Source: an uncultured delta proteobacterium
GTDB lineage: Bacteria > Desulfobacterota > Desulfobulbia > Desulfobulbales > Desulfurivibrionaceae
DNA length: 64,000 nucleotides
Direction of reading: 5' to 3'
Assembly (NCBI GenBank): GCA_903869265.1
Contig: CAIPYE010000015.1
Span: forward strand, 372,001 to 436,000
Shown: piece after piece, positions 17,063 to 58,553 of the stretch
Layout: every line of letters starts with the position of its first letter
Numbering within the stretch: the stretch's first letter is position 1
Notes under the pieces: model-generated
The model's input: only the letters and a program-made list of their open reading frames with translations
The model's database searches: none
Told to the model about the DNA's origin: nothing
Program-made: the position numbers and the translations under genes

Positions 17063-19849
17063 ATGGCCATTCCAATCTCCCCCCAATGCGGCCTGCTCTC
17101 CAGCAATCCTGAGCAGGATCGCGCCGACCTGTACGCAATCCTGCTCAGTCTCCCGACTCCCATAGAAATCTACCTCCCGGACGGCACCCTGCTTTTGGCG
17201 AACACCGCTGCCCGAAGCCTGCCCACTTTCCCCAAAAACGCTGCCGGAGAAAACGGCACGATCGCCATCCATGCCGATGATCGCGCCCCCTTTCTCCGAG
17301 CGATGCAAGATAAAAGCACCTGCCTGGGTCCAGACCGGGGCTGCATTCTCCAAAGTCAGCCGAACACGACCTTTTACTTGCAGACACAGTATGTCCCGGT
17401 CTGTGACGAAAACGGGGAAGTCCGCCATGTGGTGGTGAGCCGGGAAGACGTCACCGCATTGCGAACAGGTGCACGCTTTCAACGGCTGGTGGAAGATGCC
17501 GATGAAGCCATTCTGGTTCTCCAAGACGGTATGATCAAATACTTCAACCGCCGAGCGCTTGAGGTAACCGGCCATTCCCCTGACGCCTACCGTTCACAGC
17601 CTTTTCACGCCTTTATCCACCCGGAAGACCGCGAGATGGTCATCCAGCGCTCCATGCAGAGGCTTCAGGGCATGGAGTTGCCCAATATCTATCAGTTCCG
17701 GGTGATCGACGCCCGGGGAGAGGCGAAATGGCTGCAAATCAATGCCGGAGTCATCGACTGGGAGGGAAGACCGGCCATTCTCGCCTTTCTCCCCGACATC
17801 ACGCAACTGCGCCAGACAGAGATGGCTCTGTGGGAAAGCGAGATCCGCTTCCAGATGATCTCGGAAAACACGGGAGATCTGATCATCCTGAGCAACGGCC
17901 TGGGAAAAACCATCTTCGTCAACTCGGCCCTGAACAAACTCCTCGGTCTTAAGACAGAAGAATTACAAGACAGGCCGATCACCGAAATCATCCACCCTAA
18001 ATACCGTTCTGCCCTCAGCAGGCTCTGGAACCGAATTCTCGCAGGAAAAAACGTCGCCCCGCAGGAAACCATCCTGGTCAGGCAGGATGGGAGCCATCTT
18101 GCCGCGGAAATAAGTTGTTTTGCCATCGCCCAGGAAAACAGCGAGCCATATCTTGGCGCCATCCTGCGCGACATCTCGGCGCGCAAGGAAACGGAGCGTG
18201 AGCTGGAACAATACCGCGACAGCCTGGAAAAAATCGTGGGAGAACGCACCTCCGAACTGACCCAGGCCAATGCCAGACTCCAGCAGACCATCACCAGCCA
18301 AGAACTTGCCGAGGAACACCTTTCCCAAGAAAAGAACACCCTGGAAGCGGTTTTTTCCGCCATGAGCGATGGCCTCTCCATGCATGACCGTGATTTCAAT
18401 ATCCTCTTCCAGAACGCCGTCCTCACCAAACGCTACGGCAATTGCACGGGACAACTGTGCTATGCGGCCTACCACGGACGAGAGACCCCTTGCGAGAACT
18501 GCGGGCTACTGGGCTGCATCAAGGACGGCGCGACCCACTGGTTTAAAATGAATGAAACCACCGGCCAGGAGAATCTGTTCTTTGAACTGGGCGTGAGCCC
18601 GGTCCGCGACGGCAAGGGCGCGATCATCGCGGCGGTGGAGGTGATCCGGGATATAACCGACCAGAAAAGACTGGCGGATCAGCTGCTCCAGGCCCAGAAG
18701 ATGGAGGCCATCGGCACCCTGGCCGGGGGTATCGCCCATGACTTCAACAACATCCTCACCGCCATTCTCGGCTATGCGGAGCTGTCAAAATTCGAGGTCG
18801 ATCCGAACAGCGATCTCTCACGCAATCTTGCCGAGATTATCAGCGCCAGCCGCAGGGCAGGAGATCTTATCCGGCAGATCCTTACCTTCAGCCGCAGGGC
18901 GGAGTTCAAGAAACAGCCGCTGCAGATCCACCCCGTGGTCAAGGAGGCCCTCAAGCTGATCCGGGGCACCATCCCTTCCACCATCGATATCCGGCAGGAG
19001 ATCGCCGGTGACTGCGGAACAATCCTCGCCGATATCACCCAGATCCACCAGGTGATCATGAATCTCTGCACCAACGCCTACCACGCCATGCGGCAACAGG
19101 GGGGCATCCTGATCGTCAGACTGCAAAATACCGTAATCAACAAGGGGGAGACAAGCGAACCGCCGACAGGACTCGCGCCGGGAAATTATGTGCGACTGAC
19201 GGTCTCGGATACCGGGCACGGCATGGACGAATCCACCCTGGATCGGGTGTTCGACCCCTACTTCACCACCAAGAAACAGGGAGAAGGGACCGGGCTTGGC
19301 CTGGCAACCGTGCATGGCATCGTGGAAAACCACGGGGGCGCGATCTCGGTGAAAAGTGCGCTCAACGAGGGAACAATCTTTGACATCTATTTCCCCCAGG
19401 TGGAAACAGCTTTTTCCGCCGCCATAACCGGCTGGAGCGAAACCGGGTCCACCTCTTTTGCGGCCAGAATCCTGCTGGTGGACGACGAAGAAATGCTTAT
19501 CCGACTGGGGAAAAGCATCCTCAAGAAACTGGGACACACCGTGACCGCCTTCAGCAACAGCCAGGATGCGCTGGATTGCTTCCGGAAAGATCCCCTGGCC
19601 TTCGACCTCCTGCTCACCGACCAGATGATGCCCGGCCTCACCGGTCTGGAACTGGCGAAACAATGCCTGGCGCTGCGCCCCGATCTCCCGGTTATCTTGG
19701 CCACGGGCTACAGCGAGGCCACCAGCAAGGAGCAGGCCCTGGCCCAAGGCATCAGGGCAATCCTCTGGAAGCCGGTGACCATCAACACCATGGCCGAGAC
19801 CATCCAGCAGGCCCTCGGTGAAAAAGGGCAACCTGCCAAATCTTCCTGA
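17063..19849 (+). CDS. PAS-domain hybrid sensor histidine kinase with receiver domain
   Basis: A 928-residue soluble sensor; no transmembrane segment is evident. Three PAS domains cover about residues 20-375, a coiled coil about 375-430, and a fourth PAS domain about 430-545 carries a cysteine cluster ([16 protein letters not shown]). The H box [20 protein letters not shown] has His559. The ATPase domain has [10 protein letters not shown] (N box), DTGHGMDES (G1), and [15 protein letters not shown] (G2). A C-terminal receiver has phosphoacceptor Asp853 (LLTDQMMPG) and Lys in LWKPV. It stands alone, so its output partner is unknown. The start has only a weak ribosome-binding site. Confidence 0.93.
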
Positions 19850-19938: not shown

Positions 19939-22503
19939 TCACAAAACCGCACCTTCCGGGGAGAGCCGAACCTCCATCTGCTTGCCCTTCCTGACCTCAA
20001 AGTGCTGCTCGCCGATCTTCCGGTTCTGGTAAAAAAACTGGACCGTCCAGGTTCCATAGATGTTCTGCATTTTTTCCGTGATGGTAAGGGCCTCAACCAG
20101 GCGCTGCATGTACTTGACCTGCTGATTCGAGGTGCGGACCAGCTTTCCATCCGGCCCGTACCATTGGATAACCAGGGGCAGGGTTTGGTCCGCCGGGAGA
20201 AAATTCACCGAATAGAGCGCACCCAGAGTGGCCCCGATTTTTCCGGTAATGTTGTTCGCCCCTCCGGCAAACATCTGCAATTTTTTCATGTTCAACTCGA
20301 TATCGCTGATGTTTTCATAGGTAGCGCTCAATTCGGCAACCTGCTGAAACGGTTGCTGCACAAGGCCTGCGCTTTCGACCTGCAAAGCCCATATTTTCAC
20401 TGGACGTAGCGCGCCTGTCGGTGCTTCCGATTCCTTGCTCTCGTGCCCGGCCATGGCGACTTTTCCGCCAGGCGGAACAGTCGCCGCGCCCAGACTGCTC
20501 TCCGGGCCAGGGGGTTTGAACCCTTTCGCCGTATTGATTTTCTTGGCCCTTTTGATGTTTTTCGTATTCTGCAAAGTGGCCTTGGTCAGGTCGGCGCCTT
20601 CCAGGTTCGTCCTGTTCAGATCGGCGTCATTGAGGTTGGCATTGACCAAAATGGCGTGGGACAGATCGGCATCGGTGAGGTCTGTCCAACGCAAGTCGCC
20701 GTCCCGAAGGTTGGCTCCGATAAGCACGGCATTGGTCAGATCGGCGTTGGCCAGATCCACATTGGCAAGATCAGCCTTGCTCAAATTGGCATCGATGAGA
20801 TTGGCGTTTCGCAGGTCAAGGCTGACCAGCTTCGCATCGCTCAGCACTGTCTCGCGCAGATTCTTGATATCGAAATGCTTGACCACAGTCAGATTGATCC
20901 CGGACAAATTCGCCCCCTTCAGGTCGGCATTGCTGAAATTGGCGTTGGCCAGCTCGGCGTTGCTCAGATCCGCCCGGTTCAGATAGGCATGACTCAGCTT
21001 CGCCCTGGTGAGATCCGCGCCCTGTAGGTTGGCGTTGTTCAGATTCGCCCCATTGAGATCGACTGTATTCAACCTTGCCTTGCGCAAATCGGCATTGGTC
21101 AGATTGGCTTTGACCATGAGAGTGCGGACGCCGAAATCAACCCCGGACAAACGGGCGCCGGTGAGGTTGGCCTCGGTCAGATCAACGCGTCCCATCACGG
21201 CTTTCTCACCGTTGACCTCGGTGAGGTTCGCCTGCTGGAAATTCGCCCCGGAAAATTCTCCGCCAGCCAGGCTGGCCTTGGTGAGATTGGCCCCCCGAAA
21301 ATTGGCCTTTTCGGCGCTCACCCCATTGAGGACCGCGCCATTGAGGTTGGCCTGAGCCAAGACCGTCTCATTCAACTGGGCCTCGCCCAGATTTGTTCCA
21401 TTTAAGCTCGCCTCGGAAAGATTAGCCCCATCCAGGTTCACTCCACGCACATCCGCGCCGTCAAGATTCGCCCGGCTCAAGTTCGCTTTGGTCAGGACAA
21501 TTCTCCGCAGATTGGTGCGGCGCAGGTCCACCTCATTAAGAATGGCGCCGGAAAGCTTCGCCCCCTGGAGAAACGCGGTGCTGAGATTGGTATTCCCCAG
21601 CTTGGCTTCGCTGAGATCTGCCGAGGTAAAATTGGTTTTCGTGAAAGTCCCCCCGGAAAAATCAGCGCCGCGTGCATCGCTTTCGCTGCAATCCGTTTCG
21701 AGCAGGATGGCGCCCGTCAAAATCGCCTGCTGAAGATCCGCCCCCCGGAGATTGCTCCGAGCAAGATCGGCATCGGTCAGGTTCGCCCCGCCAAGCTTAG
21801 CCTGCGACAGATCGGCTTTCCGCATTCTGCCCCCAACCAGAATGGCTCCCCGGAGATCAGCCTCCCGGAGATCGGCATTGGCCAAGTTTGCCTGGCTAAA
21901 ATTCACCCCGCGCAGATCGGCCTCACGCAGATTCGCTCCTTCAAAATTGGCATTCTGAAAATTCAACCCCCGCAGGTTCTTGCCTGCCAGATTCGCCCCA
22001 TGGAAATCCTTGCCCGCGAACCGGGGCGTATCCCTTGCGTCTGTGGCCACGGAAGCTGCACCTTTTTCTTCCGGCCGGGGCTCTTGGAAAGAAACAACCG
22101 GGGCAGTAATAGCGGAAAACCAAGACAACCATCTTCCACCATTGTCCAGGACAAGATACCCGCCACCCCCCACCAGGGCGAAGACCGCAACTGCGGCGAC
22201 CGCCAGCCCGAACCTGGCAAAAAGAGGTCGTCCACCACCCCGCTGATCGGCAACCCGGATAACGGTTTTTTCCGAATGGCATTGCGGGCAGGGCACCTTC
22301 CTGCCGACAACGGCCGACGGCACCATCTTTTGAAATCCGCATTTGTTGCAAAAAAAGATTGCCTGGTCGGCATCCTTTGCCGCCGCAGCCGATTTTTTAC
22401 CCACGACAACGGTATGTTTGCATTTCGGACAAGGCACGGCCTTGCCGGCATGGCGGTCTTCAACCTCTACGGAATACCTGCATTTATCGCAGTAGAAAAT
22501 CAT
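19939..22503 (-). CDS. Giant zinc-ribbon / pentapeptide-repeat membrane protein
   Basis: An 854-residue protein with an unusual order of parts. Two zinc ribbons come first (CxxC at 5/8 and 25/28, then 52/55 and 72/75), followed by one transmembrane segment at about 98-117. A very long A(N/D)LXX pentapeptide array runs from about residue 165 to 675, probably a right-handed quadrilateral beta-helix some 100 repeats long. A C-terminal domain of about 150 residues (VKIWALQVESAGLV to RLSPEGAVL) looks beta-rich and is not one I recognise. The ribbons would be cytoplasmic and the helix periplasmic if the N-terminus stays inside. It is convergent with the kinase gene. Function unknown. Confidence 0.85.
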   Translation of the reverse strand: MIFYCDKCRYSVEVEDRHAGKAVPCPKCKHTVVVGKKSAAAAKDADQAIFFCNKCGFQKMVPSAVVGRKVPCPQCHSEKTVIRVADQRGGGRPLFARFGLAVAAVAVFALVGGGGYLVLDNGGRWLSWFSAITAPVVSFQEPRPEEKGAASVATDARDTPRFAGKDFHGANLAGKNLRGLNFQNANFEGANLREADLRGVNFSQANLANADLREADLRGAILVGGRMRKADLSQAKLGGANLTDADLARSNLRGADLQQAILTGAILLETDCSESDARGADFSGGTFTKTNFTSADLSEAKLGNTNLSTAFLQGAKLSGAILNEVDLRRTNLRRIVLTKANLSRANLDGADVRGVNLDGANLSEASLNGTNLGEAQLNETVLAQANLNGAVLNGVSAEKANFRGANLTKASLAGGEFSGANFQQANLTEVNGEKAVMGRVDLTEANLTGARLSGVDFGVRTLMVKANLTNADLRKARLNTVDLNGANLNNANLQGADLTRAKLSHAYLNRADLSNAELANANFSNADLKGANLSGINLTVVKHFDIKNLRETVLSDAKLVSLDLRNANLIDANLSKADLANVDLANADLTNAVLIGANLRDGDLRWTDLTDADLSHAILVNANLNDADLNRTNLEGADLTKATLQNTKNIKRAKKINTAKGFKPPGPESSLGAATVPPGGKVAMAGHESKESEAPTGALRPVKIWALQVESAGLVQQPFQQVAELSATYENISDIELNMKKLQMFAGGANNITGKIGATLGALYSVNFLPADQTLPLVIQWYGPDGKLVRTSNQQVKYMQRLVEALTITEKMQNIYGTWTVQFFYQNRKIGEQHFEVRKGKQMEVRLSPEGAVL

Positions 22504-44958: not shown

Positions 44959-45182
44959 GACCAGCCTCCGTATTGTACTTCTTTCGCACGCCACAGAAAC
45001 ACGCACCCTAAAGCCCATCATACCAGACCCACCACCCTTCGCCAACACACTCCACCAGAAACCTTATGAGTTATCACCCCCCCAAAAAAACCTTGAACTC
45101 CTCACCCTCATTCTGTCATAGTAACTTAGAGTAAATTCATTGTTTTTTTTGGCCTTACCACTGAATCCTTACAGGTATGCCC

Positions 45183-46511
45183 ATGGCACAATCACGATTC
45201 TTTGCTGTGTTACTGATGATTGCCCTACACCTCTCCCTGGCCCAAGCCGCGGTCGCTGAAGAGCTGCCCCCTTCCTACTCCCAGGGCAAACAGTATATGG
45301 ATCAGGGCCGGTTCGAGGAAGCGTACACGGAGCTACACAAGGCCTTTCTCTTAGAGCCAGGCCACCCAGACCTCAATTTCCAGCTTGGCCGGGCCGCCTT
45401 TGAAACCGGACGATTCGAGGAAGCGGTCATGGCCTACGAACGGGTTCTCATGGCCGACCCGGAGGCATCCAGGGTCAAACTCGAACTGGCCCGCGCCTAT
45501 CTCCAACTCGGCACCAAGGAAGTAGCCAAACAGTACTTCAAGGAAGTTCTCGCCACCAACCCGCCGGAACAGGTTTGGAAGAATATTGAAACCTTCCTCG
45601 CCAACATCGACGCCTCCGAGCAAAAACATTTTGTCAACGGCACCTTCACCCTGGGCCACGCTTGGGATGACAACGCCCGTTCTGCCCCGGTAAGCAACCT
45701 GATCTCCGCCTCTGGTTTTGAATTCCAGCTCACCGGTGCGAACGCCACCCCCCAGAGCGACCAGATCAACAACGCCACCCTGGTCCTCAATCACATCTAT
45801 AAAAACGAAGAATACCCCTTCATGTGGAAAACCGCAGCAACCTCCTACAATGCCCTGTACCAGAGCCTCCACGACCTTGACGTGAACTATCTTGGCCTAG
45901 CCACCGGCCCGGTTTTCCAGAAAGACGGCTACATCTGGGATGTGCAGGCGCTCGGCACGTACATTGACGTTGAGCATGACCGCTACCAAAGCTCCTTTGG
46001 GGCAGCCTCCTCCCTGACCTACTTTTTTTCGAAAAATATCATGGGTACCTTTGCCTTCAAGGCCGAGGAGAAAAACAATTACGTTGATCCTGATCGGGAT
46101 GCACTCAATCTCATGTTTTCTGCCGGGCCGGTTCTGGTGGTTGACCAGAATCGGCTGAGCCTCCTGTTCAACAAAGAAAAAGAAAACGCCGACAATGAGG
46201 TCAACAGCTACGACCGCTTCGGCTGGAAACTCCGCTACGACCGGAGCCTGCCCTACGACTTTGCCGCTTTTGCCGGACTGGGCTACACCATGACCGATTA
46301 TGATGCCACGCATCCATTTTTCGGGGTCACCCGTAGCGACGAGGTACAGGAACTGACTGCAGGGGTCTCCCGCCTGCTCTGGCAGGATACCGCCCGAAAT
46401 CAGGCGCTCATCATGCAGTTGGCGCACACCTATACCAACTCGGATTCCAATATTAGTCTGTACACCTACCGCAAGAATGTAACCGAACTCAACCTCACCG
46501 TGAGCTTTTAA
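45183..46511 (+). CDS. TPR plus beta-barrel outer-membrane protein, Slam-like
   Basis: A 442-residue precursor: signal peptide (VLLMIALHLSLAQAAVA), two to three TPR-like units (about residues 30-135, LNFQLGRAAFETGRFEEAV), then a beta-barrel of about 290 residues beginning with FTLGHAWDDNARSAP and ending in LNLTVSF, a C-terminal Phe. TPR followed by a barrel with a 'G..(D)N.....P' entry is the plan of surface lipoprotein assembly modifiers (type XI secretion). The AGGT before the ATG at 45183 supports this start; 45177 is possible. A weak TTGAAC(18)CATAGT promoter lies at 45093-45122. The next gene, 15 bases on, encodes a candidate cargo. Confidence 0.75.
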   Translation: MAQSRFFAVLLMIALHLSLAQAAVAEELPPSYSQGKQYMDQGRFEEAYTELHKAFLLEPGHPDLNFQLGRAAFETGRFEEAVMAYERVLMADPEASRVKLELARAYLQLGTKEVAKQYFKEVLATNPPEQVWKNIETFLANIDASEQKHFVNGTFTLGHAWDDNARSAPVSNLISASGFEFQLTGANATPQSDQINNATLVLNHIYKNEEYPFMWKTAATSYNALYQSLHDLDVNYLGLATGPVFQKDGYIWDVQALGTYIDVEHDRYQSSFGAASSLTYFFSKNIMGTFAFKAEEKNNYVDPDRDALNLMFSAGPVLVVDQNRLSLLFNKEKENADNEVNSYDRFGWKLRYDRSLPYDFAAFAGLGYTMTDYDATHPFFGVTRSDEVQELTAGVSRLLWQDTARNQALIMQLAHTYTNSDSNISLYTYRKNVTELNLTVSF

Positions 46512-46526
46512 GCAGCGAGGACCGTC

Positions 46527-48590
46527 ATGAAAAAAACCGCCTTCTTCCAGACCATCGTCCTGCTCATCATGCTGTGCTTGGCGGCGCCCCTCTCATCCGC
46601 CTACGCCGAAATCCAGGGGGTGGCCACGGTTGTCGCCCTCCGTGGCACGGTTGTCGCGCAAGGCAAGGGTGGCGCAGCTCGCAATCTGAGCCTCAAAAGC
46701 CAAATCTTCCAAGAAGATGTTCTGAAGACCGACAAAACCGGTCAGTTACAGATCATGTTCACCGACAACAGCATCATCAGCCTGGGCCGCGACAGTGAAA
46801 TGAAGATCGCCGAATACCGCTGGCAGCCAGAGCAAAAAGACGGTGCCCTTAGAACCCAAGTCAAAGAGGGAACCTTCCGGGTGATGGGCGGGGCACTGGC
46901 CAAGGAAGCCCCTCAAAACTTCAAGACCGAAACCCCCACCGCAACCATCGGTATCCGTGGCTCCATGTATACGTTTGTGGCGACCAAGGACTCCCTTTCT
47001 GTTCTCTTCCAAGGCGGCAAAGGCATAGAAATCTTCAACGACCTGGGCAAGGTAACCATCACCGTTCCTGGCTTCGGCACCCATGTTTTACTGAACGCCC
47101 CACCTGCACGTCCTTCCAAATTCACGGAACAGGAACTCAACAACCTGAATCGGGGGCTTAATGGAAACGGTGGCAGCTCAGGCAGCGGCGGGCCTCCGCT
47201 CTCGGATACCAACCAGGCTCCCAAACCACCTATCCCTCCTGTTCTACCTCCAACCAATGAGTTTCCGACAGCGCCGGACTTTACCCTGCCCCCGCCCCCG
47301 CCGAGCGATGGCATCTATGCATTTGAAGGAACGATTGGCGGCGTTTCCACCGGCTTGATTTCTCCGTATGTGGGGATTACAGACACCTTCATTAACAACA
47401 TGTCGATGGGAGTAAACTGGCATAACCATCGAATTTTTGGCGTAGCCTACGACAATCAGAACAACAACAATGTATTCTTTTTCGGTTCGGTCAACGGATC
47501 TACCGTCACAGATCTTACAATTTTAGGAATTGACACCTACGGGCAAAATTATGATCCGGGAGTCATTTCCGGATCCGGCATGGGCGTCTTTGCTGGCACG
47601 GCCTACGACTTTTTCGCATTTGCCGCTACGGGAAGCACTGCCCTCATAAAAAATCTAGCACAACCCCATGACACCTGGCTCGCGGCCGGCGGCGGCCAAC
47701 AAACACCAGGCGTTATAAACCCGGTTTCCCCCACGGGTACTGAAACCTGGAAGGGCTTTGCCGTTGGCACGAGTGTCGATCTTGCTGCCCCTTACAGCTC
47801 TTCCGTTGCAATGTATCAAAGTGCCCCTAATGACTTTTCCATGACGGTTAATAAGGATATTGGCACAATCAGTGGAACCTTGACTCCTGGGGTTGAACTC
47901 CAAACATCATTTGATACTATTTCCGGCCTGGTGATCGGACACGCCACCGATCTAACCAAGTCAGTTTATCTCCGCGACGATCTCATAGCCGCGCTGTTTA
48001 ACCCCGTTGGCGGTTCCCACACCTTAAAACCCTATGGCAATTTCATGGTTGTTGCTGATCCTTCAGAGCAATTCTCCAGCTATGTTACCTGGGGCTACTG
48101 GCAGATTGCCTATACCGACACTTATGACGGCACAACAGAACGCCTTATGACCGCCCCCTATTCTCTGTGGATTGCGGGCAATCCAACTTCGAATATAGAC
48201 ATGGCCGCTCTTAATGGCTACAAAGGAACATACAACGGCAACGCCATTGGCACAGAAATCAGCACAAACGGCGCCAAGTCTTCCATATCCGGCACTTGCG
48301 TACTTAACGCCGACTTTACAAACGGCTGGGTCGACGGCAACATCATTTTACCGGGGACTACTCTGCCCTTTTCCTCGGTTCCTATTACTACAAATTCTTT
48401 TACGGGCAACATCTCTAACGGCAGTAACATCTCCGGCCAGATCAAGGGAGGGTTCTTCGGACCAGCGGCCATTGCGGTGGGAGGCAACTTCAATGCGACA
48501 AAGACTGGCCAAACCATGCCCGATACCAAGCAGTATCTCGGCATCTTTGGAGGCAACCGCGGAGCCTTGACCACATCATCACCAAATTAA
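46527..48590 (+). CDS. FecR domain / TbpB-like C-terminal fusion, candidate secreted cargo
   Basis: A 687-residue precursor with a standard signal peptide (LCLAAPLSSAYA; the internal Cys is not a proper lipobox). A FecR domain follows (TVVALRGTVVAQGKG, FTDNSIISLGRDSEMKI, VKEGTFRVMGGALAK, ETPTATIGIRGSMYTFV), then a Pro/Gly linker at about residues 210-263. The C-terminal 420 residues are beta-rich and end with GQIKGGFFGPAAIAVGGNF and a YLGIFGGNR close, very like the barrel signature of TbpB-type Slam cargo. The 3' part is visibly richer in A/T than the 5' part, possibly a different origin. Confidence 0.8.
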   Translation: MKKTAFFQTIVLLIMLCLAAPLSSAYAEIQGVATVVALRGTVVAQGKGGAARNLSLKSQIFQEDVLKTDKTGQLQIMFTDNSIISLGRDSEMKIAEYRWQPEQKDGALRTQVKEGTFRVMGGALAKEAPQNFKTETPTATIGIRGSMYTFVATKDSLSVLFQGGKGIEIFNDLGKVTITVPGFGTHVLLNAPPARPSKFTEQELNNLNRGLNGNGGSSGSGGPPLSDTNQAPKPPIPPVLPPTNEFPTAPDFTLPPPPPSDGIYAFEGTIGGVSTGLISPYVGITDTFINNMSMGVNWHNHRIFGVAYDNQNNNNVFFFGSVNGSTVTDLTILGIDTYGQNYDPGVISGSGMGVFAGTAYDFFAFAATGSTALIKNLAQPHDTWLAAGGGQQTPGVINPVSPTGTETWKGFAVGTSVDLAAPYSSSVAMYQSAPNDFSMTVNKDIGTISGTLTPGVELQTSFDTISGLVIGHATDLTKSVYLRDDLIAALFNPVGGSHTLKPYGNFMVVADPSEQFSSYVTWGYWQIAYTDTYDGTTERLMTAPYSLWIAGNPTSNIDMAALNGYKGTYNGNAIGTEISTNGAKSSISGTCVLNADFTNGWVDGNIILPGTTLPFSSVPITTNSFTGNISNGSNISGQIKGGFFGPAAIAVGGNFNATKTGQTMPDTKQYLGIFGGNRGALTTSSPN

Positions 48591-48591
48591 A

Positions 48592-50835
48592 TTGGACACC
48601 GCCCGACTCAACTCATACATTACCCTGTCCCCCTTCAAGGTCGGCTGCCTGGTTACCCTGGCAGCCGCCTTGCTTTTCTCTTCCTTTGGCCAGCAGAAAC
48701 CGGACGTTCTTGAAACCCTTGACAACCGGCTCACCGACACCATGTTCCGCTGGCGGGGCGTGGTCAAGCCTGTCCAACCCATCGTCATTGTCGATATCGA
48801 CGAAAAAAGCCTGCGCGCCATCGGCCAATGGCCCTGGCCCCGCAACACCGTAGCCAAGATGATCCGTAATCTCGGCGCAGGCGGGGCAAAGGTGATCGGC
48901 CTGGATATCGTCTTTGCCGAGACGGACCGCACCTCGCCGAAAAACTTTGTGGACGAACTGCGCCAGCTTCTCCCAGCGCAGCTTCCGCCGGAGGCGCTGG
49001 CGGCGCTGAAAGCCAAGGAAAGCCTGGACCACGATCTCGCTCTGGGCAAGGCCCTGGCCGCAACGCCGTCGGTTTTGGGCTATGTCTTCCAGACCCAGGA
49101 TGACGGCCTGAAAAACCAGACGGATATGCCCTTCCCCTCCGGCGCCACCCGCCTTGTTCCAAGCAACCTCCGCTACGGGGATATCTCCCTGCTCCGGGCC
49201 TACCGGGCCATCACCAACGTGGCCGCTGTGGCCCAGGGCCAGAGCGAAGGTTTTTTCAATGTGTTCCCCGATGCCTCGGGCACGGTGCGCAAGGTTCCGC
49301 TCTTCATGATGATGGACGGCATCCCCTACCCGTCCCTGGCTCTGGAAATATTGCGCATCGGTCTTGGCGCGCAGGAGGCGACCATCCAGGTTTCCCGACA
49401 GGGACAAACCAATCCCAGGGACATCCTTGGGGTTGCCGTGGGCTCAACCTTTATCCCCACCGATGAAAAAGGCCAGATCACCATCAATTTCAGAGGGCCT
49501 GGCCAGACCTATGCCTACCTTTCCGCAGCGGACATCCTGGCAGGCAAAAATCTGGATCGGGTGCAGGGCAAGTTTGTTCTCATCGGCACCTCCGCCGCCG
49601 GTCTTCTTGATCTCAGAGCCACGCCTTTTTCCAACATCTATCCAGGGGTTGAGGTCCACGCCAACATCATCGACAACATCCTGAGCCACGACCCCTTCAC
49701 CCATGACATCTTCACCGAAATCGGCATCACCTACGCCCTGCTTCTGGTGGGCGGCCTGGGTTTAAGCGCGCTGCTCGCCTATGCCACCCCTTTGCTCGGC
49801 GGCCTGGGCGGCCTGCTGCTCGTTGCAGGCACTCTTGTGGGCAACTATTTTTTCTTTTTCAGCCATGGCCAGCTTGTCGGCCTCTCCTATCCGCTGCTGA
49901 CCATCCTTGCTATTTTCCTGGTGGTCACCCTGTTCAACTATTTTTTTGAAGGCCAGAAAAAACGTTTCATCAGCTCGGCATTCGGCCACTATGTCTCCCC
50001 GCAAATCGTGCACCAGCTCATGGAGCACCCGGAAAGGCTCTCCCTGCAAGGAGAACAAAAAACACTCACTGTGCTTTTTTCCGACATCCAGGGATTCACC
50101 TCCCTCTCCGAAAAAATGACCTCCGAAGAGCTTGGCCGGTTTATGAATGAATACCTCACGGCCATGAGCAATATAGTGCTGGAATACAAGGGAACCGTTG
50201 ACAAGTTCATCGGCGACGCGGTCATGGCCATCTGGGGCGCACCCCTTGAAGATGGTGACCACGCTGCCAACTGTGTGCGGGCAGCGTTCAGAATGATGGC
50301 AAGGCTCGAAACCCTCCGGGCGGATTGGCAGAAACGGGAGCTGCCCGGAGTAAATATCCGCATCGGCATCAACACCGGCATCATGAGCGTGGGCAACTTC
50401 GGCAGCGACCAGCGCTTTGACTACACGGTCATGGGCGACAGCGTTAATCTTGCCTCCCGGCTGGAAGGCGCGAACAAAACCTACGGCACCAATATTGTCA
50501 TTTCAGAATACACTAAGGCTGCCCTGGGAAAAGGGTTTTACTGCCGGATGCTTGACATGGTTCGGGTCAAGGGTAAGGATGTTCCGGTGCTCATATATGA
50601 ACCCCTCTGCGAGGGCGAACCGGCACCGGAGGTGCGGCAGGCAACAGAGTCCTTTACCAAGGCCCTGGAGCATTACGCAAACCGTGGGTTTCAGGAGGCA
50701 ACGGAAATCGTCCAAGCCCTCAACACCACAGCGCCCTCACAGCTTTACGGCCTTTACCTCGACCGCCTCGCCCATTTCGCGGTCAGCCCGCCGCCGGAAG
50801 ACTGGGACGGCGTATTCACCTTTACCACCAAATAG
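48592..50835 (+). CDS. CHASE2-domain class III adenylate cyclase
   Basis: A 747-residue membrane-bound cyclase. One N-terminal transmembrane segment leads to an extracytoplasmic CHASE2 domain (about 45-350, DIDEKSLRAIGQWPWPR), three membrane helices (about 375-460), and a class III cyclase domain with metal-binding FSDIQGFTSL (about 497), DKFIGDAVMAIWG, and YTVMGDSVNLASRLEG. Both metal Asp residues are present. A TTG start begins one base after the preceding stop and has no visible ribosome-binding site, so translation may be coupled. cAMP as product is inferred from the family. Confidence 0.9.
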   Translation: MDTARLNSYITLSPFKVGCLVTLAAALLFSSFGQQKPDVLETLDNRLTDTMFRWRGVVKPVQPIVIVDIDEKSLRAIGQWPWPRNTVAKMIRNLGAGGAKVIGLDIVFAETDRTSPKNFVDELRQLLPAQLPPEALAALKAKESLDHDLALGKALAATPSVLGYVFQTQDDGLKNQTDMPFPSGATRLVPSNLRYGDISLLRAYRAITNVAAVAQGQSEGFFNVFPDASGTVRKVPLFMMMDGIPYPSLALEILRIGLGAQEATIQVSRQGQTNPRDILGVAVGSTFIPTDEKGQITINFRGPGQTYAYLSAADILAGKNLDRVQGKFVLIGTSAAGLLDLRATPFSNIYPGVEVHANIIDNILSHDPFTHDIFTEIGITYALLLVGGLGLSALLAYATPLLGGLGGLLLVAGTLVGNYFFFFSHGQLVGLSYPLLTILAIFLVVTLFNYFFEGQKKRFISSAFGHYVSPQIVHQLMEHPERLSLQGEQKTLTVLFSDIQGFTSLSEKMTSEELGRFMNEYLTAMSNIVLEYKGTVDKFIGDAVMAIWGAPLEDGDHAANCVRAAFRMMARLETLRADWQKRELPGVNIRIGINTGIMSVGNFGSDQRFDYTVMGDSVNLASRLEGANKTYGTNIVISEYTKAALGKGFYCRMLDMVRVKGKDVPVLIYEPLCEGEPAPEVRQATESFTKALEHYANRGFQEATEIVQALNTTAPSQLYGLYLDRLAHFAVSPPPEDWDGVFTFTTK

Positions 50836-57191: not shown

Positions 57192-58553
57192 TCAATCCGC
57201 CCGCCGCACCAAATTACGTCCGGCGGACTTGGCGGCATACAATGCCTTGTCCGCCCGCTTGATCAGGGCAGCCATGCTCTCTCCTGGCCGTGACCCGGCA
57301 AGTCCGCAACTGATGGTAATCCCCTGGGGCAGATGCTCGACCTGTTGCCGCAACTTTTCGGCAATGGTGACCGCGTCATCCGCCATGGTTTGCGGACAGA
57401 GCACCATGAACTCATCGCCACCCCAGCGCCCCAGCACATCCGTCGCCCTGATCTGCTTTGCCACCGTGGCGGCAACCTCTTTCAATGCCTGATCCCCGCT
57501 GGAATGCCCGAGGCTGTCGTTGATCTTCTTGAAACCGTCAATATCAAAGAGGATAATGGTCATGGGGCTTCCATAGCGGGCAGTCCTGATAATTTCCTGC
57601 TGCAGCGATTCCTCGATCTTGCCGCGATTGCATATCCCGGTCAAAGGATCGGTGGTGGCTAGCCGGGTGAGCGCCTCTTCCATCTTTTTGTGCTCGCTGA
57701 GGTCATGCAGGGTTTCAATGACGGCAACAAGCTCCTTAGCGTGGTTGTAAATCGGTACGGCATCGACGGACAGGTAGCGGCGCGTCCCGCCCACCGCATC
57801 CAGCCACTCTTCGGCGTGAATGCCCTCCTCCTTCAACTCCGAATTTCTAGCGGCAGTATACAAATCGGCGAGATTATGCCGGTCTGCGGAATCAATAACC
57901 ATATCGGCCAGGCACGGACGTTTTTCACCATAAAAAGCCTGCCAATGGTTCGCTGTTCCCACCATTTCTTCTGCGGGAATGGTGGTGAGCATCTCGCAGG
58001 CCCGGTTCCAGTATGTGACTCGGTGCTGTGGGTCCAAAACGAAAATAGGCACTGCGGAGTAGCGGATCATTTTTTCCGTAAGCAGCTTCTGATTCCGCAA
58101 CAGATTTTCAGCCTCTTTCCGCTGGCTGATGTCGCGAAAGATCCCCATGGTCGCCACCAGTTTGCCACCCTTGAATTCGGTGTGGATCTTGCCTTCCACC
58201 GGAATCCTGCGCCCGCTCTTGGCGACAAAGACCACCTCGTAGGTATGGGAGATCTTGCCCTCTACGATATCACGAAACAGGGTGATGCAATGCTCGCGGT
58301 ACTCCGGCTCAATGATATCAAAAATAGTGAGCGCGCCAATTTCGGCCTCATCATAACCCAAGGTCTCCTGCCACGCCTTGTTGACATAGAGGAATCTCCC
58401 CTCCCGGTCGATGCTCTGGATCAAATCATTGGCGCAATCCAGAAAAATCTGCGAAAACCTGCAGTCAGCAAAAAAGGCCTTTTCCGCCCGCGGCTGCTGC
58501 GCTGGATCATTTTCCGAAAACGTATGTGTCCGATCCATCTCTGTATCTGCCAT
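57192..58553 (-). CDS. PAS-PAS-GGDEF diguanylate cyclase
   Basis: A 453-residue soluble protein. PAS 1 (about 35-145, LIQSIDREGRFLYVNKAWQ) and PAS 2 (about 155-285, PIFVLDPQHRVTYWNRA) are followed by a GGDEF domain (about 295-450). TDPLTGICNRGKIEESL opens it; RWGGDEF is the active site, and RATD five residues earlier is a complete RxxD inhibitory site. Both support an active, feedback-controlled c-di-GMP synthase. It is convergent with folE2. Confidence 0.95.
   Translation of the reverse strand: MADTEMDRTHTFSENDPAQQPRAEKAFFADCRFSQIFLDCANDLIQSIDREGRFLYVNKAWQETLGYDEAEIGALTIFDIIEPEYREHCITLFRDIVEGKISHTYEVVFVAKSGRRIPVEGKIHTEFKGGKLVATMGIFRDISQRKEAENLLRNQKLLTEKMIRYSAVPIFVLDPQHRVTYWNRACEMLTTIPAEEMVGTANHWQAFYGEKRPCLADMVIDSADRHNLADLYTAARNSELKEEGIHAEEWLDAVGGTRRYLSVDAVPIYNHAKELVAVIETLHDLSEHKKMEEALTRLATTDPLTGICNRGKIEESLQQEIIRTARYGSPMTIILFDIDGFKKINDSLGHSSGDQALKEVAATVAKQIRATDVLGRWGGDEFMVLCPQTMADDAVTIAEKLRQQVEHLPQGITISCGLAGSRPGESMAALIKRADKALYAAKSAGRNLVRRAD

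Follow-up and report, generated by a model that had tools for sequence, protein, structure and literature searches.

A Slam-like exporter, a FecR–TbpB-fold protein and a CHASE2 cyclase encoded in one operon: a candidate trans-envelope sensor in Desulfobacterota

Introduction

It is poorly understood how Gram-negative bacteria, without recourse to TonB receptors, relay through two membranes what happens at their surface; nor is it known which signal CHASE2 domains sense (PMC5192318). A three-gene operon of an uncultured delta proteobacterium of the family Desulfurivibrionaceae (Desulfobacterota) raises the question of whether a protein exporter, its predicted cargo and an adenylate cyclase may act together as such a relay. 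The operon lies within a stretch of 64,000 nucleotides (assembly GCA_903869265.1, contig CAIPYE010000015.1, positions 372,001 to 436,000), referred to here as the window, and coordinates given without a locus label count from its first letter. The three genes are as follows.

45177..46511, + strand: gene 1, a predicted Slam-type outer-membrane protein of the type XI secretion system (T11SS), with signal peptide, TPR domain and 14-stranded barrel (Pfam TPR_19, 2.3e-17; SlipAM, 24.0 bits; AlphaFold2 [AF2] model)
46527..48590, + strand: gene 2, a FecR–linker–TbpB-fold protein, the predicted T11SS cargo and sensor (FecR, 5.6e-8; TbpB_B_D, 1.8e-8)
48592..50835, + strand: gene 3, a predicted CHASE2 transmembrane adenylate cyclase (CHASE2, 3.8e-64; Guanylate_cyc, 1.3e-27)

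We consider it highly probable that these genes are real, non-randomly grouped and conserved, and that they probably form one functional unit. Much more tentatively, we propose that a secretion system here serves as a receptor: the T11SS barrel would thread a cargo of two parts, placing a diversifying TbpB-like domain outside the cell and leaving in the periplasm a FecR domain that controls a CHASE2 adenylate cyclase, in what may be a sensory class of Desulfobacterota, Campylobacterota and some Alphaproteobacteria.

The operon in its genome

The three open reading frames (ORFs) encode proteins of 444, 687 and 747 amino acids (aa), the last from a TTG start. They are separated by 15 bases (genes 1 and 2) and 1 base (genes 2 and 3), and from this spacing tight co-transcription is likely. 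The three frames and their gaps had been described in an earlier reading of the letters, called here the sequence-only reading. Its start for gene 1, at 45183, needs correction: this is a second in-frame ATG, and the ORF begins at 45177. In the genome (2.8 Mb, 99 per cent complete), FecR, TbpB_B_D and CHASE2 domains occur exactly once each, all within the operon, and their grouping is therefore not a matter of chance. The genome encodes only two class III cyclases, and its seven cyclic-nucleotide (cNMP)-binding domains, one of them in a 227-aa open frame, the size of CRP/FNR, are candidate readers of cyclic AMP (cAMP). Homologues with names assign the window to Desulfobulbales-like Desulfobacterota.

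Gene 1, a likely T11SS outer-membrane protein

45270..45617, + strand: predicted periplasmic TPR domain, residues 32–147 (model helices 32–147; TPR structures at Z 17–18)
45627..46505, + strand: predicted 14-stranded outer-membrane barrel, residues 151–443, with F444 as the last residue of the protein (14 long strands in the model)

Slam proteins consist of TPRs and a predicted 14-stranded barrel (PMC7857515). The AF2 model of gene 1 (predicted local distance difference test [pLDDT] 92.7) has the same layout, a TPR solenoid followed by exactly 14 long strands that run up to the C-terminal Phe. The sequence-only reading had called the protein a TPR protein with a Slam/DUF560-type barrel, and the profiles agree: SlipAM (PF04575)/DUF560 exceeds its cut-off of 22 bits on gene 1 and matches 25 of 27 homologues (E up to 0.01; best 2.9e-17), and TPR_Slam matches 24 of the 27, with 30.6 bits on gene 1 itself (under its cut-off of 35.2). 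On the structural side, the 14 strands are predicted as expected; the likeness to Slam is one of sequence profile only, with no Slam chain among the PDB structure matches listed for gene 1. Among solved structures, the barrel is closest to two 14-stranded porins, CymA (Z 22.3) and OmpG (Z 21.1).

Two observations speak against the Slam assignment. DUF2860 outscores the weak SlipAM match (24 bits) on the gene 1 protein, and a SlipAM score of about 24 bits is by itself unspecific, as a BBP2_2 porin of a polysaccharide locus in the same genome reaches 26.7. The Slam call therefore rests on the homologues and the architecture. Could gene 1 encode a polysaccharide-export or general porin barrel (of the BcsC, AlgE or BBP2_2 type) and no protein translocator? 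BcsC is the top Foldseek match, and the same-genome porin shares the SlipAM match. Against this stand the 14 predicted strands, which is the number predicted for Slam (PMC7857515), the SlipAM matches throughout the homologues, and the behaviour of the gene 1 family profile. The profile aligns nearly end to end, from the TPRs to the C-terminus, with a Sphingomonas T11SS-type protein (L132) that has a TbpB_B_D cargo gene of its own next to it (E 5.9e-12), whereas its match to the BBP2_2 porin covers part of the barrel only (2.7e-5). We regard a porin as very unlikely; strand number, profile and cargo all led us to reject a role in polysaccharide export. Nor does the genome's other SlipAM match point to a further T11SS, because it is that same BBP2_2 porin. 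Profiles and model together point to gene 1 as a likely T11SS outer-membrane protein.

Gene 2, a FecR domain joined to a TbpB fold

46614..47153, + strand: FecR domain, residues 30–209, a predicted periplasmic relay (fold matches to the PupR cell-surface-signalling domain 6ovk, Z 15.5, and the anti-sigma factor 4m0n, Z 15.6)
47154..47300, + strand: disordered Pro-rich linker, residues 210–258 (pLDDT <50 for 214–252)
47301..48572, + strand: TbpB-like half (barrel, handle, C-terminal barrel), residues 259–682, a predicted surface domain (TbpB 3ve1, Z 15.4)
48213..48572, + strand: C-terminal 8-stranded TbpB_B_D barrel, residues 563–682, the predicted T11SS export signal (Pfam match to residues 568–678)

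The description of gene 2 as a secreted FecR protein ending in a TbpB-like barrel was borne out by profiles and by the predicted structure. Its N-terminal hydrophobic segment is a predicted Sec signal peptide, with the lipobox absent. The FecR profile scores 33.6 bits (cut-off 24; 5.6e-8), TbpB_B_D is likewise above its cut-off at the C-terminus (1.8e-8), and both domains are present in all 18 of 18 homologues. In the model (pLDDT 85.7), residues 259–682 follow TbpB through the N-lobe barrel and the C-lobe handle and barrel (Z 15.4 over 310 aligned residues, with a high inter-domain root mean square deviation). The C-terminal half adopts the TbpB/FHbp/NHBA fold (Z 14–17), and its last barrel lies near FHbp 4ayn (Z 16.8) and 6cuj (Z 16.7), which are FHbp/NHBA matches. 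The NCBIfam model NF041636, 'Slam-dependent surface lipoprotein', also reaches the C-terminus, with 48.1 bits under a cut-off of 80. A profile of 31 gene 2 homologues, compared with PDB sequences, found TbpB, NHBA and hemophilin at the C-terminus and, at the N-terminus, the 'Antifreeze protein' 5ix9 (6.9e-6), which we take to be the membrane-retention region of a Marinomonas adhesin. The NCBIfam model retention_LapA matches the N-terminus of the FecR domain as well (4.3e-7; 30.2 bits, under its cut-off of 50).

The gene 2 protein is unlike a FecR/PupR anti-sigma factor in that it has a signal peptide only and no cytoplasmic anti-sigma part, and in that its neighbours are an exporter and a cyclase. 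Its layout is constant: in all 49 of the 49 cargos examined, a linker of 46–542 aa follows FecR, and the TbpB barrel ends 2–12 residues from the C-terminus. T11SS targeting has been assigned to the extreme C-terminus of the cargo (PMC12282271). In several long cargos the TbpB-like unit is present in two or three copies. Sensing of iron or transferrin, which the name TbpB might suggest, was set aside, as nothing here favours any particular ligand.

Gene 3, a CHASE2 cyclase

48673..49761, + strand: predicted extracytoplasmic CHASE2 domain, residues 28–390 (Pfam CHASE2, 3.8e-64; flanked by hydrophobic segments, residues 10–33 and 373–454)
50059..50580, + strand: class III cyclase catalytic domain, residues 490–663 (Guanylate_cyc, 1.3e-27)

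The assignment of gene 3 to the CHASE2 adenylate cyclases stands. The metal-binding Asp pair, the substrate-binding Lys and Thr, and the transition-state Asn and Arg are invariant in 60 of 60 homologues, and Lys with Thr is the combination expected of an adenylate cyclase of the IIIb type. By these residues, gene 3 is a predicted CHASE2 class III adenylate cyclase with a complete catalytic set.

Conservation of the three genes

A search with the FecR protein found matches in 39 of 58 relatives. Under strict limits, the FecR-domain profile has matches in 46 of 243 genomes from the order and in 19 of 296 from the phylum, a patchy distribution. The trio appears at dozens of loci in Desulfobacterota, and also in Campylobacterota and on alphaproteobacterial plasmids. 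Gene order was counted at the 42 FecR–TbpB genes that have an adjoining exporter and enough room to see downstream: the cyclase comes directly next in 37, and in three more the gene is the first of two tandem cargos before the cyclase. The survey of neighbourhoods that the sequence-only reading had called for thus finds the three genes conserved together, in order at 40 of the 42 usable genes. One of the 37 (L056) holds a run of N inside the gene; it was considered as a natural FecR–CHASE2 cyclase fusion and rejected, the joint being that run of N in the scaffold. By topology, such a fusion would place CHASE2 on the wrong side of the membrane.

The cyclase is missing after the two remaining genes (L039 and L108). 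The second of these loci (L108:10193-16339) encodes the exporter and a FecR–TbpB cargo, with two hybrid histidine kinases, one carrying a Cache sensor domain, and a sigma-54 response regulator downstream, a possible swap of output.

The same three-gene layout occurs in a Helicobacteraceae metagenome-assembled genome (MAG) of the Campylobacterota (L123) and is complete in a MAG that carries the label Planctomycetota (L102); of the trio, only the exporter is present at two loci with the label Lentisphaerae (L106 and L116). The Helicobacteraceae locus at first seemed to lack the TbpB part. This was rejected: a run of N interrupts the gene, in which the part does occur. The layout is also found on plasmids, namely pAMI5 of Paracoccus aminophilus (L173:2401-8046) and p1 of Shinella (L174:1855-14022), where the TbpB matches are under the Pfam cut-off. 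On the Shinella plasmid the trio lies directly upstream of NHLP bacteriocin exporter genes, and on the Paracoccus plasmid a cNMP-binding patatin-like protein is encoded upstream. Elsewhere, a second, more divergent set of CHASE2 cyclase, TPR and FecR genes adjoins a canonical trio on the opposite strand (L103:12915-18144). One trio is apparently decaying (L122:9854-13005): its exporter barrel is lost, the TPR runs into FecR, and the TbpB, CHASE2 and cyclase frames are broken.

An ordinary FecR–CHASE2 pair might by accident adjoin an unrelated T11SS, with no functional coupling between them; FecR–CHASE2 pairs without T11SS do exist, with histidine-kinase output (PMC5192318). The joining of FecR and TbpB in one polypeptide, and an order that is fixed across phyla, leave this explanation largely refuted and, in our estimate, extremely improbable.

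Co-occurrence and divergence of the modules

Among loci in which a TPR gene adjoins FecR, both the exporter barrel and the TbpB part are present in 43, the barrel only in six, TbpB only in none and neither in six (Fisher test, p 3e-5; the test treats as independent loci that share ancestry, so it overstates the number of independent events and is indicative only). The exporter barrel and the TbpB part are thus mostly gained or lost together. One of the six loci counted as having the barrel alone, the Helicobacteraceae locus, is an artefact of the sequencing gap described above.

The six loci with neither part pair a TPR protein that has no exporter barrel with a FecR-only protein. In three of them, the TPR–FecR pair is flanked on one side by a TolC-type outer-membrane protein and on the other by a giant protein of the DUF4347 or LEPRIMFD type.

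L125:324-9530: barrel-less relative (same genome region as L038)
L126:7651-20315: barrel-less relative
L129:8246-20327: barrel-less relative, with the TPR fused to TolC; downstream lie two HlyD-type proteins, of which one matches Peptidase_M50, and a CHASE2 gene

Because the TPR–FecR pair sits beside T11SS-type barrels in some loci and beside TolC in others, it accompanies two different outer-membrane export systems, and the arrangement in these three loci looks like a version of the module resembling the type I secretion system (T1SS).

The halves of the gene 2 protein diverge at different rates. Compared with three close orthologues, the window protein is 86–93 per cent identical in FecR, 54–65 per cent in the middle part and 50–61 per cent in the TbpB barrel; for the TPRs, exporter barrel, CHASE2 and cyclase the identity is 78–95 per cent. 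Tandem paralogues show the same contrast, with FecR 77–88 per cent identical and the remainder 42–52 per cent. Three loci have tandem duplicated cargos in which FecR is conserved and the TbpB halves have diverged.

L053:6748-11612: duplicated cargo
L055:2655-7345: duplicated cargo
L059:5873-12048: exporter and cargo both duplicated

Pairwise distances of the TPRs, barrel, FecR and CHASE2 correlate at 0.79–0.85 with one another, and those of TbpB (a short and noisy domain) at 0.57–0.60 with them. A constant and a variable half are the pattern expected, at the level of sequence, of a fixed inner relay with a diversifying surface domain.

Relation to described systems

The sequence-only reading knew of no described system with this combination of genes. 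Related ones exist, and it is the link to T11SS that is absent from the open-access papers found: no paper joining T11SS with FecR or cAMP turned up in the open-access literature, subscription papers being outside the search.

The closest precedent comes from Sinorhizobium meliloti, in which an external signal, the uL2 protein, was shown experimentally to raise cAMP through an outer-membrane receptor, NsrA, and a CHASE2 cyclase, CyaK (PMC7529298, PMC13001267). We took the FecR gene upstream of cyaK as nsrA by its position and by a barrel span of residues 600–1200, as given in PMC7529298. By our computed domain composition, NsrA (L172:1811-5383) is a single chain with a FecR domain, TPRs and a barrel region, and its gene overlaps cyaK by 1 base. 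Both systems have FecR, TPRs and an outer-membrane barrel with an adjoining CHASE2 adenylate cyclase. NsrA is a single polypeptide without a TbpB fold, whereas the window operon splits the modules over two genes and has a TbpB-like half and a T11SS-like TPR-barrel protein. The operon therefore looks like the same relay divided among three genes, in which a T11SS-type cargo domain has been added to serve as the surface part.

With characterized T11SS (Slam1–TbpB, HrpB–HrpC and NilB–NilC; PMC8406197, PMC12282271), the operon shares the TPRs with a 14-stranded SlipAM-type barrel and an adjoining SPI cargo with a C-terminal TbpB_B_D. It differs in that the N-terminus of the cargo is a FecR signalling domain, in that the operon ends with a cyclase, and in its taxa, which lie largely outside the animal-associated T11SS cluster 1. 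A 2025 survey of T11SS cargo lists no FecR among the cargo architectures (PMC12282271).

A Campylobacterota cluster of TPR, FecR, CHASE2 adenylate cyclase and phosphodiesterase genes was noted in 2022 (PMC9239204). It has the same gene types, and the Helicobacteraceae MAG has the same three-gene layout; that paper names no Slam-like TPR protein, TbpB barrel or export model. In the BiofilmReg operon of Burkholderia and P. aeruginosa, a gene for a periplasmic FecR(LysM) protein adjoins one for a CHASE2 histidine kinase (PMC5192318), so that the pairing of FecR with a CHASE2 sensor is shared, whereas the output is a histidine kinase, LysM stands in place of TbpB and an exporter is absent. Finally, adhesins of the LapA/MpIBP type keep a retention module in the periplasm and display the remainder on the surface (PMC13090378). 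Their N-terminal retention module resembles the N-terminus of gene 2 in sequence, whereas their export is by TolC/T1SS or type Vb, with LapG proteolysis, in place of a Slam-like barrel.

Proposed mechanism and its rivals

In the mechanism that we propose, the gene 2 protein would pass the inner membrane through Sec and be bound in the periplasm by the TPR domain of gene 1. Its TbpB-like half would then be moved, C-terminal barrel first, through or along the 14-stranded barrel to the cell surface, and FecR would fold and remain periplasmic, with the disordered linker spanning the outer membrane. Binding of a ligand by the surface half, or a changed state of export, would alter the contact of FecR, presented beside the TPRs, with CHASE2, and this altered contact would switch cAMP synthesis by the gene 3 protein. 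The model builds on computed domains, predicted folds, conserved order, co-variation of modules and an intact cyclase active site; from these we infer the direction of export, the retention of FecR, its contact with CHASE2, any ligand and the sign of the response. The likeness of the FecR N-terminus to LapA-type retention modules and the precedent of NsrA with CyaK also speak for it. The sequence-only reading had suggested that the three genes could form a unit which exports a sensing protein and couples its state to cAMP, and profiles, predicted folds and conservation support that suggestion. That the operon is a trans-envelope sensor working in this specific way seems to us, on balance, somewhat probable.

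Besides the shared ancestry of the counted loci and the weak SlipAM score of gene 1, three observations weigh against the proposal. First, if FecR is not retained, the gene 2 protein, having no lipobox, might simply be secreted whole. Second, one locus is a true exception to the joint presence of barrel and TbpB part (L110:9863-14381): it encodes an exporter barrel (SlipAM 4e-14), a 285-aa FecR-only protein and a CHASE2 cyclase, with no TbpB part. Since the exporter and the cyclase are retained there beside a FecR-only protein, the TbpB half can be dispensed with. Third, of the parts of NsrA, FecR aligned with its counterpart here, the TPR region did so weakly, and the barrel gave no alignment with the Slam-like family.

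The first of these observations leads to the possibility of an export checkpoint, in which gene 1 secretes or displays the whole gene 2 protein and the cyclase senses unexported gene 2 protein through FecR, reporting the secretion load and not an external ligand. The likeness of the FecR fold to anti-sigma signalling domains and the tight co-transcription suggested by the spacing would fit such a role. The variable TbpB and constant FecR halves, together with the repeated TbpB units, look instead like diversification for ligand binding or adhesion, and the barrel-less loci, which pair a FecR-only with a TPR protein, fit a permanent periplasmic role for FecR. We judge the checkpoint unlikely.

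The L110 locus, with its barrel, FecR-only protein and cyclase, would also fit a receptor without secretion, as would NsrA, an outer-membrane receptor for CyaK (PMC7529298) that by our domain assignment consists of FecR, TPR and barrel, with no TbpB part. Here the gene 1 barrel would itself be the surface receptor, and gene 2 would be wholly periplasmic, its TbpB-like half docking on the barrel or the TPRs. C-terminal barrels of the TbpB fold are, however, a hallmark of T11SS cargo (PMC8406197, PMC12282271), and a purely internal docking module would not be expected to vary more quickly than the exporter barrel, as the TbpB half does. This arrangement, too, is improbable in our view, and a little more so than the checkpoint.

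Other features of the window

The surrounding region is rich in signalling genes, among them a PAS hybrid histidine kinase and a PAS-GGDEF diguanylate cyclase (17063-19849 and 57192-58553), and positions 19939-22503 encode an 854-aa protein that consists mostly of pentapeptide repeats. A scan for promoters and terminators gave no signal of use above background, and an Rfam scan of the window found a tRNA only.

Significance

If the proposed relay is real, a surface protein placed by a T11SS would bring its own periplasmic relay domain to a position beside a CHASE2 cyclase, and T11SS would gain a role in signalling. T11SS cargo has been verified in host-associated bacteria, and its range would then reach far outside them; the Campylobacterota cyclase cluster, reported without a mechanism, would acquire a list of components.

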